A stretch of DNA of 64,000 nucleotides from Nannobrachium achirus (taxonomy: Eukaryota; Chordata; Actinopteri; Myctophiformes; Myctophidae), in contig OY997656.1 in assembly GCA_963921795.1 (NCBI GenBank), positions 56,727,839 through 56,791,838 on the forward strand, in the 5' to 3' direction. Positions 205 through 63,200 of the stretch are shown one piece after another. The notes under the pieces are model-generated. The model was not told the DNA's origin, did no database searches, and was given only the letters and a program-made list of their open reading frames with translations. Made by a program: the position numbers and the translations under genes. Numbering within the stretch: position 1 is the stretch's first letter; the number at the start of each line of letters is the position of its first letter.

Positions 205-588
205 CTCAACCACTGTGCCTGGGGACCTTTGGTGTGCCCCTGAGAAGGGTCAAGTGTGCCCCTTGAAACTGCTTGAAAGACAGTATTGTATTTATCATTT
301 TAAACATGATTTAAACTAGTGAAAACAGCAGATCTACAAGCACACAACGCCTCGCACCGCGAGGCGTTGTGTGCTTGTAGATCGGCTGTTTTCACTACTG
401 TTGTGCGACAGCCTTGTATGATGAAGCAGGGCTTTACTTTGCGAAGAAACGTAATTATTTGAAACTTGGAGATGCAAGGTTTCTTCCCGACAGTGATGAT
501 ATTTACACCCACGTATTATGTTGGTGTGCCCATGGATTCTTGGGACATGAAAAGTGTGCACATGCAGAAAAAAGGTTGAGAAACACTG
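205..588 (-). mobile_element. Miniature element, GGGCACAC family, hairpin-bearing copy
   Basis: This is an inverted copy of the element at 14639-14981. Both share the central 'cttcccgacagtgatgat' text and the outer ends (GAGAAACACTG at the right edge here). This copy holds a full hairpin at 318-396. The 14.6 kb copy has the same hairpin collapsed to 34 bases. Terminal sequence CAGTGTTTCTCA is of hAT-Charlie type by resemblance. Confidence 0.7.
318..396. repeat. Palindromic hairpin repeat, 79 bp
   Basis: Arms 318-355 and 359-396 pair with one mismatch around a 3-base loop. Both arms carry the private variant 'caagcacaca'/'tgtgtgcttg' instead of the common caagctcaca. It is a member of the dispersed hairpin family described under findings. 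Confidence 0.9.
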
Positions 589-698
589 TAATAATGTATA
601 TATATTTTGACATATAAAGTTCTCCTCATGTTTGTTGTTGTGTAGAGTTATGTTGCTCAGGTGTTAATGCTGCTTAATACAGAAAGCGAATCAGAATA

Positions 699-62200: not shown

Positions 62201-63200
62201 TTGACAATTCGAAAAAGGAAAGAAAGAACAGAGCCAGTTGTGTTTTGTTTTATTTTTTCTATTATGTTTAGTTGTAAAGTGCACAATGACTGTTGAATGA
62301 GCACATTTTATCCTCTGTTGGAACAAAATAACAGATCTACTGCTATGAATGCGTTCAACTTGTAGATCTACCCAGAATATAGGCCTATTCACAGAAACCC
62401 GCAGTGGAATGCCCTGAAGCAAGCTGAGATGGTGACGTCATTGAGTATGCTGCTATTCCAATAGCAGAACTCCCCTCCTCCCGTCCTCCCCTCCTAGGAA
62501 GTCCCTTCTCCCAAGGAGAACATGCTAGTCTGAACTCCCAAGGAGGGAAGTCTTTACTCCCCAAGTCTTTGAATTGATAATCGGCCATTCCCACTAGGTC
62601 ATGGAACAAATGCCACAGTTTTCACATTGGCCTGTTATAGTGCCACCAGCAGGTAGACTCGTGGCACTCCGAAAACACATTTTTTGGAACAATGCCACCA
62701 GGACACCTGACCTGGCTTCTTGTTAGGCCTATCCTTTTTTCTGCTGTTGTTATTATATTTAGGCTATTGCTGCATTGGCTGAAGGAAGCCAAACCAAAAT
62801 AAGTTTTACTCTTGAGTCTCATGTACGTATACAAAATATGTAACCATAAAGTACCCCTTGAACCTTTGGAGTTCGTTAAAGTATGACCCGCTAAAATGGC
62901 ATAAAATGCACCGAAACGCCACATTGAATTCAAAATGGCTGACTTCCTGTTTGGTTTAGGTCATGGCACTAAGATACCTTTTTTGAAAGTCGGGACATGA
63001 TACAAATGTGATTTTTCTTCTTTTTTTCTTTTTACTAAAACTACTGCTAATGTGTTTTCAGGATGCGAAATATCGTCAGAACTATGGACCGAATTTCCAT
63101 CCAACATTTGAGGTGACGATTGATCTCAATGCAGAAGTCATCCCATTGAAACTGCTGGGACCTGACGAGATAGTCTGGGAGAAGGAGATTAACCTGAAAG
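50180..63200 (+). CDS. FIIND-domain protein, CARD8/NLRP1-like, 3' end beyond window
   Basis: FIIND (ZU5 plus UPA) proteins are inflammasome sensors that cut themselves inside FIIND. Coding exons seen: 50180-50256, 52639-52743, 57126-57165, 57257-57309, 58430-58644, 60671-60918, 61005-61121 and 63062-63200. Phases close through all of them, giving 331 codons so far. Residues 1-91 are low-complexity, with PDFSDEPGPSHSQ like the linkers of fish NLR proteins. ZU5 starts near 93 (FQFHRAGQFQCSVTGLGFQT) and UPA covers about 200-331 (QVLLLLRPPGREG…, TECDLTEGQRYSLQCS, YGPNFHPTFEVTIDL). His171 and Ser198 are 27 residues apart, as are human NLRP1 His1186 and Ser1213. No NACHT or LRR exon lies between the linker and FIIND. 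So the order is CARD8-like. A CARD would be expected next but is not in the window. Start: ATG 50180; the earlier ATG 50160 stops within its exon. Confidence 0.85.
50257..52084. other. FIIND gene intron: repeats
   Basis: GGTCCCC-family hAT-like element (50506-50700), hairpin (50842-50903), two inverted GCGCCACC-type repeat copies (51040-51290), and an inverted pair 'cttgggtcaaaacacaggtg' / 'cacctgtgtaaggctgtgtt' (51396-51500). 51500-52084 is unassigned. Confidence 0.6.
50842..50903. repeat. Palindromic hairpin repeat
   Basis: Left GCCAAAATTAGCAGATCTAC, right TTGTAGATCTGCTATTTTTG, with a shortened apex 'agcactgcac'. Confidence 0.85.
52085..52603 (+). mobile_element. tRNA-derived SINE split by a 242-bp insertion
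   Basis: The head has TAGCTCAGGAGGTTGCGGG and B-box GGTTCAAATCC. The body has 'gtccttgggcaagccaccct'. The tail 'aagcatcttggataaaggca' resumes after 52518. The insert 52265-52506 is flanked by exact ATGGTTTCCACC (52253-52264 and 52507-52518). Confidence 0.88.
52639..52743 (+). CDS. FIIND gene coding exon b (residues 26-61)
   Basis: Encodes GGSSQSPESAAANASSTKKE followed by QHPDFSDEPGPSHS, a disordered linker like those of fish NLR proteins. Acceptor attccag, donor ca|gtaaga. Confidence 0.75.
53408..53453. repeat. (GA)n microsatellite
   Basis: About 45 bases inside element C. (TG)n at 53739-53793 follows. Confidence 0.97.
54569..54973. mobile_element. CAGGGGTCTTCAACA-type hAT-like element with full hairpin
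   Basis: Ends CAGGGGTCTTCAACAGGGAG and GTTGGAGACCCCTG. The flanks ctttatga / cttatgat suggest a decayed 8-bp duplication. The hairpin 54715-54800 has a symmetrical apex gcctcgc…gaggc and arm ends TTAGCCAAAA / TTTCGGCAAA. Confidence 0.85.
55148..55303. repeat. Dispersed repeat, inverted copy of 43725-43873
   Basis: 'agtgtgtgggttatgggatg' and 'gatggaaagtaactttaact' match in reverse. A C-rich tract and (CA)n (55382-55481) follow. Confidence 0.8.
55382..55768. repeat. (CA)n and (GACA)n microsatellites
   Basis: CA at 55382-55481 and (GACA)n at 55705-55768. A tandem 26-base repeat 'tgcctcatgctagatgcaga' at 55504-55555 lies between them. Confidence 0.95.
56999..57112. repeat. (TG)n microsatellite just before a coding exon
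   Basis: 114 bases of TG ending 13 bases before the acceptor of the exon at 57126. It therefore serves as that acceptor's pyrimidine/purine tract. Confidence 0.97.
57126..57165 (+). CDS. FIIND gene coding exon c (residues 61-74)
   Basis: QLSSDEVDGSNMDV, phase-matched on both sides. Acceptor ttctag, donor gtt|gtgagt. Small linker exon. Confidence 0.65.
57257..57309 (+). CDS. FIIND gene coding exon d (residues 75-92)
   Basis: TSFVPSVLHREQSANEYR, immediately before the ZU5 fold. Acceptor tttcag, donor ag|gtaagt. Confidence 0.75.
57542..58080. mobile_element. Non-autonomous hAT element with near-exact 8-bp duplication
   Basis: Termini CAGAGTCCTGCAATGGG and CCCATGCTGGACTCTG are inverted. Flanks TGTTAGGG (57534-57541) and TGGTAGGG (58081-58088) differ at one base. 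The interior has 'cgggtacccgctgatacccg' and 'gggtagcgggtcggtccgtg'. Confidence 0.88.
58086..58429. repeat. Partial miniature element with hairpin left half
   Basis: 'tagggctgtcacaactatta' is a hAT-like end without a clear partner. The hairpin left arm (58210-58240) is followed by a truncated GATCTGCTA. Confidence 0.55.
58430..58644 (+). CDS. FIIND gene coding exon e: ZU5 subdomain (residues 92-164)
   Basis: FQFHRAGQFQCSVTGLGFQT…VQWEDRWLQS…GPLFDVKCPQKTVCQLKLPR is the FIIND N-terminal half, with the usual GPLFD and VCQL blocks. Acceptor cacag, donor g|gtgagg. Confidence 0.9.
58695..58935 (+). mobile_element. V-SINE/DANA-like short repeat
   Basis: 'gtggtgcagtcggtagcgct' with B-box-like GAGTTCGATTCCCGCAGG and the conserved fish block GTGGAGTTTGCATGTTCTCC. 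The tail 'tgggtaggtgccctcacaaa' also occurs at 3661-3680. Confidence 0.85.
58936..59660. other. FIIND gene intron, unassigned
   Basis: No repeats with clear ends and no coding evidence. 59020-59100 contains 'atcgtaccgtgagtgtctgg', like the cgatac-rich elements. Confidence 0.4.
59661..59733. repeat. Hairpin repeat with a compensated arm change
   Basis: The left arm has AGACCTACAAG and the right CTTGTAGGTCT. The usual T-A pair of the AGATCT site is a C-G pair here, so both arms changed together. Confidence 0.88.
59768..59826. repeat. (TATAA)n microsatellite
   Basis: Eleven or so five-base units. Confidence 0.97.
59850..60670. repeat. hAT-like remnants and the ~120-bp dispersed repeat
   Basis: 59850-60010 belongs to the GGGGTC family (ends 'cccagttgaagac'). 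60190-60380 is rich in 'cgtatcg', like 9714-10270. 60379-60485 is the ~120-bp repeat seen at 2.7 and 24.5 kb. Confidence 0.6.
60671..60918 (+). CDS. FIIND gene coding exon f: autoprocessing site and UPA start (residues 164-246)
   Basis: Contains VAHISDEGLELP (His171), VVVNVTHLSIFGLLEK (candidate cleavage Leu197|Ser198) and QVLLLLRPPGREGRMLNVYL. Acceptor tttcacag, donor gag|gtaaaa. Confidence 0.92.
61005..61121 (+). CDS. FIIND gene coding exon g: UPA (residues 247-285)
   Basis: VMKQHPGDELLPTNTECDLT then EGQRYSLQCSNPSYEIDPK. Acceptor attgtag, donor aag|gttttt (weak), fixed by phase with the next exon. Confidence 0.88.
61122..63061. other. FIIND gene intron
   Basis: Holds GCGCCACC-type repeats (61200-61320, 61460-61760, 62590-62700) and a decayed hairpin (62329-62371). 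62460-62540 has 'ctcccaaggagaacatgcta' with inverted 'gaactcccaaggagggaagt'. The final T-rich tract leads to the next acceptor. Confidence 0.55.
63062..63200 (+). CDS. FIIND gene coding exon h: end of UPA (residues 286-332)
   Basis: DAKYRQNYGPNFHPTFEVTI … PLKLLGPDEIVWEKEINLK, the conserved end of FIIND. Donor aag|gtaaag, phase 1, so at least one more coding exon follows. Confidence 0.9.

Follow-up and report, generated by a model that had tools for sequence, protein, structure and literature searches.

A dispersed palindromic hairpin family, carried at least in part by hAT-type elements, in a genomic stretch of Nannobrachium achirus

The window analyzed here, a stretch of 64,000 nucleotides on contig OY997656.1 of Nannobrachium achirus (positions 56,727,839 to 56,791,838), contains a dispersed family of short palindromic hairpins, hAT-type transposable elements, a predicted ncf1-like locus and a reverse transcriptase open reading frame (ORF). 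The hairpins, each composed of an arm, a variable apex, and a mirror arm, are the subject of this report.

Copies and distribution of the hairpin

The hairpin family is real and non-random. A total of 42 matches to the core arm AGCAGATCTACAAGCTCACA were identified on both strands at up to three mismatches, as compared with a mean of 0 in 100 dinucleotide shuffles. These matches represent 29 loci, 13 listed with two arms and 16 with a single arm. By raising the limit to six mismatches, 59 arm matches were obtained and grouped by script into 42 loci, from which five (1317, 35691, 46055, 50351, and 59594) were removed by eye as likely chance matches and one (15060) was merged with its neighbour at 15030, leaving 36. 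The spread of these 36 loci is uneven, with 29 within 0-28 kb, one weak locus (39112) within 28-50 kb, and six above 50 kb. The initial annotation had proposed a dispersed palindrome family of this architecture, which is borne out, and the 13 copies that it listed were all found at their places; its count of more than 30 copies, complete or in part, is reached only when weak copies are included (29 loci at the stricter limit and 36 at the looser). The limits of some copies were corrected: an arm of the copy at 6687-6755 reaches 6765, the copy at 318-396 occupies 317-397, and the copy at the far end of the proposed span, 62353-62372, is present but weak with six mismatches.

A total of 19 loci could be aligned on both arms, with partial loss of the left arm at 2986-3061 and of the right arm at 17738-17814. 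A covariance model derived from these loci, as the initial annotation had suggested, recovered all 19 at E <1e-6 and added five weaker core-bearing loci (1188, 1845, 14828, 25462, and 58204; E from 2.5e-4 to 0.06). From this model and the list of mismatches, a degenerate state is common among the copies. The arms of the best copies (317-397, 3494-3576, and 24424-24498) measure 36-39 bp and are 97% complementary. When eight copies were folded as single-stranded DNA, z-scores of -10.4 to -17.0 were obtained, predicting a very stable hairpin. The module measures roughly 72-80 bp and consists of two long arms separated by a very short middle, which is the layout of the Made1-type elements considered below.

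Several related structures were observed. The covariance model also matched a weak sequence at 33767 and, with E of 1e-4, a separate near-perfect palindrome of 52 bp with a different core at 28641-28692. Single arms without partner at 2520-2560 and 15015-15080 have a common continuation, ACACACC followed by AATTTA, and two half-arms stand in direct tandem at 15030-15079. A repeat starting at the end of the palindrome at 24424-24498 (24498-24617) is found again at 2705-2831 and in part at 60371-60447. Inverted arms of 61 nt, spaced by 69 nt and 80% complementary, are located at 37064-37254, and parts of them also at 8400-8467 and 41688-41755.

The 16-base core and its reverse complement were absent from the literature text searched, which says little about prior naming, and nothing in the window reached the Rfam gathering score, in agreement with the earlier remark that no named family is known; tRNA and tmRNA genes were likewise not found in the window. 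Among titles and the beginnings of abstracts on palindromes of fish hAT elements, nothing was on point. Exact occurrences of GATCTACAAGCTCACA in 18 viral and 56 other genome contig stretches were considered as relatives and taken as chance, because only one of the 74 stretches (L069) has a partner arm within 120 bases even at 12 of 16 positions, metagenomes and animal genomes being outside this search.

hAT-type carriers and neighbouring genes

Self-comparison of the window indicated that many hairpins sit within larger repeats, and six kinds of carrier, herein families A to F, were distinguished by alignment and reading. Sister copies have hairpin and flanks in common over about 200-600 bp. 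Family A is a unit of 600 bp containing two hairpins in inverted orientation, and family E has its end motif at 3644-3656 and sisters at 11033, 14150, and 21391. About 21 of the 36 loci, as assigned by eye, have flanks in common with one of the six families, and two more (22452 and 13244) are doubtful members of family A. Between families, flank matches are limited to overlapping windows, through which the flank clustering links neighbours, and to an E-type stretch adjacent to locus 50852.

Five of the 36 loci lie in elements for which both ends are proposed, 19201-19929, 12167-13122, 14639-14981, 54569-54973, and 196-588. The first four have short terminal inverted repeats starting with CA (10 to 13 of 14 positions; Table 1). 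The 8-bp target duplication is perfect in the first two, matches at 6 of 8 positions in the third, and is inexact in the fourth; none was seen at 196-588. With reference to hAT elements and their 8-bp duplications as defined in PMC2874221, the carriers resemble hAT-type miniature inverted-repeat transposable elements (MITEs) with CAG ends in having CA-type terminal repeats and 8-bp duplications, but differ in that the hairpin spans carriers whose bodies are different and whose ends are of three or more kinds. Because the hairpin is common to such different carriers, it is not regarded as a family-defining part. These observations indicate that at least some of the hairpins are carried by hAT-type elements. 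The initial annotation had described the unit as arm plus loop and not an ordinary MITE; the arm-loop-arm layout holds, but five or more copies form part of longer hAT-type elements bounded by terminal repeats, and further copies have carrier flanks.

An automatic scan for terminal repeats returned 13 pairs, several of them hairpin arms or repeats, and 19201-19929, 14639-14981, and 7670-8112 were used from it; 12167-13122, under the scan threshold of 11, and 54569-54973 were picked out by eye. The element at 7670-8112 is hAT-like, with a perfect 8-bp duplication TGATTATT and terminal repeats of 11/14, and contains no hairpin. Wherever a carrier end is visible by eye, it is located 40-250 bp from the hairpin. 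The hAT end motif CAGTGGTTCTCAA is found within 300 bp of 14 of the 36 loci as compared with an average of 5.8 under circular shifting (at least 14 loci in 24 of 20,000 shifts), and three end motifs within 300 bp of 19 loci as compared with 9.8 (27 of 20,000), the motifs having been selected after the carriers had been seen. No transposase was identified among the six ORFs scanned in the window. As a candidate for a site empty of the hairpin, the carrier at 21391 was rejected, since remnants of the outer arms are still present and the state looks like a deletion.

Table 1. Hairpins and carrier elements in the window
Feature	Position	Strand	Remarks
Hairpin, carrier family D	317..397	.	39-bp arms, 97% complementary
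Carrier hAT-type MITE, family D	196..588	-	End motif CAGTGTTTCTCAA at 576-588; left end approximate, from alignment to 14639-14981
Family D carrier, copy two	14639..14981	+	Terminal repeats 12/14; target duplication 6/8
Hairpin remnant in family D carrier 14639..14981	14828-14867		Apex and most of one arm gone
Hairpin, family E	3494..3576	.	39-bp arms, 97% complementary
Family E carrier, hairpin collapsed to outer-arm remnants	21391..21640	+	Right end provisional
Hairpin, family A	4604..4671	.	Apex lost
Hairpin 1, first 600-bp family A unit	6249..6333	.	
Hairpin 2, first 600-bp family A unit	6684..6768	.	Inverted relative to hairpin 1
Hairpin 1, second family A unit	23527..23611	.	About 40 bp past stop codon of last ncf1-like frame
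Hairpin 2, second family A unit	23969..24053	.	
Hairpin, family C (CTTTTACTCAAGTA-motif carrier)	7331..7400	.	Apex lost
Hairpin, family C	11744..11828	.	
Hairpin, family C right flank	2986..3061	.	Left arm partly replaced
Hairpin with 17 bp of left flank common to 317-397	9247..9322	.	Asymmetric arms
Hairpin, family F	12286..12377	.	Pairing 10 bp beyond shared unit, one 1-base offset
Carrier hAT-type element, family F	12167..13122	+	Perfect 8-bp target duplication CTGTAAAA; terminal repeats 10/14
Carrier hAT-type element, family B	19201..19929	+	Terminal repeats 13/14; perfect 8-bp target duplication TACTATAC; hairpin 19442-19516
Carrier hAT-type element, family B	54569..54973	+	Terminal repeats 13/14; inexact target duplication; hairpin 54715-54801
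Hairpin between two ncf1 exons	17738..17814	.	B-like flanks by eye; outer arms TTCACC/GGTGAA matched
Hairpin, outer arm unlike other copies	24424..24498	.	20-bp outer arm perfectly complementary
Divergent hairpin	27577..27660	.	
Hairpin, B-like left flank by eye	50840..50907	.	Apex lost
Hairpin, GACC change present in both arms	59656..59741	.	

With respect to neighbouring genes, the frames at about 17.6, 19.0, and 21.65 kb, joined as a query, match p47phox/NCF1 chains in PDB (best E of 3.4e-34, residues 1-89 of 103), and because of this match the region 17560-23492 on the plus strand is predicted to be a vertebrate ncf1-like locus. The frame near 23.4 kb with its stop codon at 23490-23492 is what we take to resemble the C-terminus of NCF1. 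The hairpin loci 17750, 19454, and 22452 are located between the ncf1-like exons, and a 600-bp two-hairpin repeat begins right at the stop codon of the last ncf1-like frame. On the minus strand at 25836-27254, an uninterrupted single-exon ORF of 472 amino acids, of FKBP type with two FKBP stretches and TPR matches, is possibly a retrocopy.

Matched changes between the arms

With the structure of the copy at 327 as reference, two-sided changes were counted at 21 of 41 pairs among the 19 aligned copies, and the covariation score was 0.177 as compared with 0.096 after shuffling (0 of 500 reach it), the shuffles ignoring relatedness and five of the 19 rows belonging to family A; slid structures scored 0.048-0.063. 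In 11 hand-picked rows of the 19, the arm bases off consensus amount to 7% in the 16-bp core, 21% in the inner stem, and 42% in the outer stem, and Watson-Crick pairing to 92%, 78%, and 72%, respectively; for all 19 rows, the off-consensus values are 7%, 25%, and 37% and the pairing values 89%, 79%, and 66%. For nine hand-picked copies, 33 mismatches were counted between arms of the same copy, as compared with a mean of 59 for swapped arms (16 of 200,000 shuffles). The mean arm difference within a copy, 4.5 of 26 bases in 16 copies, is below that between families (6.7).

Pairing continues past the shared unit for 5, 6, 7, 10, and at least 15 bp in five of the 11 representatives, 15 bp being the limit of the test, and for 0-3 bp in the other six. 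The summed pairing is reached by one of 100,000 swaps, and by 16 of 100,000 without the longest copy; these representatives were picked by hand, and those at 54729, 50852, and 17750, all with B-like flanks, may not be independent insertions. The outer ends vary between copies, and match in the inverted, not the direct, sense. The copies at 327 and 9259 agree in the left-arm sequence GCACACA and over 17 bp of the left flank; the right arm at 327 is the same as its own left arm, and the right arm at 9259 reads GCTCGCA with the more usual T. This pair gives a hint of a partly time-ordered arm change.

The identities of hairpin and flank in seven comparisons of sister copies were 0.94/0.94, 0.91/0.95, 0.89/0.86, 0.89/0.91, 0.97/0.96, 0.74/0.87, and 0.83/0.86, the hairpin being above the flank in three and below it in four by plain count. 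With hairpin and flanks diverged to about the same degree, selection on single copies can hardly account for the matched changes. The arm matching is mostly a property of the family and not of the single copy.

Origin and upkeep of the hairpin

The reading that we favour, tentatively and at somewhat less than an even chance, is that the hairpin is a palindromic passenger module in several non-autonomous hAT-type families, multiplied by its carriers, with its arms matched by replication template switching. One palindromic MITE-like ancestor would have entered different families, and carriers and hairpin would then multiply by hAT transposition, as shown by the five copies in both-ended elements and, by extension, for the other carrier families. 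The matched changes point to correction of the imperfect palindrome during DNA replication as the main reason why the arms stay complementary; in this process, the nascent strand would fold back or switch template and one arm, at times with 5-15 bp or more of flank, would be copied onto the other. Most correction would have taken place in founder elements ahead of carrier multiplication, or else it may act slowly on the copies; deletion would remove apexes and arms, and no host or RNA function would be required. Template switching would account in one step for matched changes, for the clustering of replacements, and for outward extension. In yeast, template switching is described to homogenise the arms of inverted repeats and to extend arm identity (PMC8604942, PMC3820800), and quasi-palindrome correction by template switching is reported for Escherichia coli (PMC7202029). 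The likeness is that the arms turn identical and arm identity extends, but here the process would have acted across a dispersed transposon module, whereas in yeast it was observed.

A number of observations weigh against this passenger-module reading. With respect to the carriers, only five of the 36 loci are in both-ended elements and 13 have no assigned carrier; families A and C are less certainly hAT, a label given to them partly on the basis of their terminal motifs; within 200 bp the proximity of hAT motifs is not significant (7 of 36 loci as compared with 4.0, reached by 2,686 of 20,000 shifts, and for three motifs 10 of 36 as compared with 7.0, reached by 3,151 of 20,000); and no site empty of the hairpin was seen in the window. 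With respect to the arms, relatedness is left in the covariation test, and 33 unmatched as compared with 23 matched changes were counted in the set of nine copies. The arms of sister copies are closer to each other (3.3 on the same side and 2.8 crossed) than the two arms within a copy, and correction after carrier multiplication therefore lacks support. Family A retains the arm difference GATATAC versus GATCTAC in all five two-armed copies, and the arm correction is thus not constant. For the pair 327 and 9259, the left flanks diverge beyond the 17 bp, the right flanks barely match, and the flank comparison gave no match for 9259. In addition, selection on founder elements could also give matched changes. 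The small share of both-ended elements and the sister-arm distances not only weaken the passenger-module reading but also strengthen its rival, an independent palindromic MITE.

Such a MITE, of the Made1 or Angel type, would have its own transposase and often be nested in hAT elements, the terminal repeats of its successive masters co-evolving; it is unlikely, though a serious contender. Made1 is a human MITE with a mariner relationship, and a TA target duplication is a defining feature of MITEs of its type. Angel, which is longer than the hairpin here, is reportedly a zebrafish MITE described by Izsvak and colleagues in 1999. The conserved core amid differing flanks, the 13 loci without an assigned carrier, and the closeness of sister arms, as expected if matching took place in the masters, are in favour of the independent MITE, and so is the layout: Made1 is described as a near-perfect palindrome of about 80 bp with two 37-bp arms around 6 bp (PMC1784062), a likeness of layout. 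As an all-arm MITE of about 80 bp is a kind already known from that description, the earlier argument that a unit without body is not an ordinary MITE falls short. Angel is likened to the hairpin by description, as a fish element of high copy number that could form a stem-loop and for which compensatory changes were reported (PMC2579443, PMC3636048). Among the 11 representatives, however, direct duplication is at chance level (summed length of 35 as compared with a mean of 37.6 after swapping of sides, at least as long a sum being obtained in 1,553 of 2,000 swaps), leaving a direct target duplication of the hairpin's own unsupported, TA is present on both sides of the palindrome edge in none, and the variable, inversely matching outer ends also argue against this rival. 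Unlike Made1, the hairpin lacks TA or any other direct duplication, part of its copies are in hAT-type elements, and its outer arms vary. Because the direct-duplication test failed, the hairpin is not filed as an ordinary independent MITE. We class it as a hAT-type MITE module that behaves like a palindromic MITE, and not as a member of Made1 or Angel.

The remaining explanations have lower probability. A cis-acting function of the hairpin in hAT elements, either as a subterminal structure or as paired transposase-binding sites, with recombination exchanging it between families, agrees with the core being the least variable and best-paired part of the 11 representatives and with the distance of 40-250 bp to visible carrier ends, but is improbable in view of the hAT-like element at 7670-8112 without hairpin, the three or more kinds of carrier ends, the persistence of the carriers at 14639-14981 and 21391 with the hairpin largely deleted, and a divergence of the hairpin about equal to that of the flanks. 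A hairpin mobile by itself, of which arrival or upkeep makes inverted flank copies by copying 5-20 bp across through fold-back synthesis, has likewise a slender chance; this idea predicts that each insertion has outer arms of its own, perfectly complementary to each other, and lacks a direct target duplication; if true, it would represent a route of spreading of hairpin DNA unlike cut-and-paste. A transposon-spread family of non-coding RNA or microRNA-like genes is very improbable. The stem is stable and of the size of a microRNA precursor, the mir-548 family is described to have come from Made1 (PMC1784062), compensatory changes are described for Angel copies inside long non-coding RNAs (PMC3636048), and some hairpins lie between ncf1-like exons or about 40 bp after the stop codon. 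On the other hand, nothing reaches the Rfam gathering score, many copies are degenerate, and sister copies show no clear extra conservation of the hairpin. The covariation seemed favourable to RNA function at first, and it is this divergence of the hairpin, about that of the flanks, that speaks against it; the microRNA-precursor idea of the initial annotation gained no support. An artefact of assembly or cloning is hardly credible: palindromes are in general error-prone in assembly, but the copies are diverged, lie in different carriers, and have flanks in common with their sister copies.

The hairpin family is explained in outline by known processes, and what is unusual is its presence in several hAT-type families and the private matched outer arms of some copies. 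Within a single genome, one palindrome is present here in numerous replicates across several hAT-type families, and its arms tend to change in step. Compensatory changes, as in the Angel copies within long non-coding RNAs (PMC3636048), had been taken as evidence for selection on RNA structure. Whether a palindromic MITE keeps its shape through selection on RNA or through template switching during replication can be tested directly on this family.

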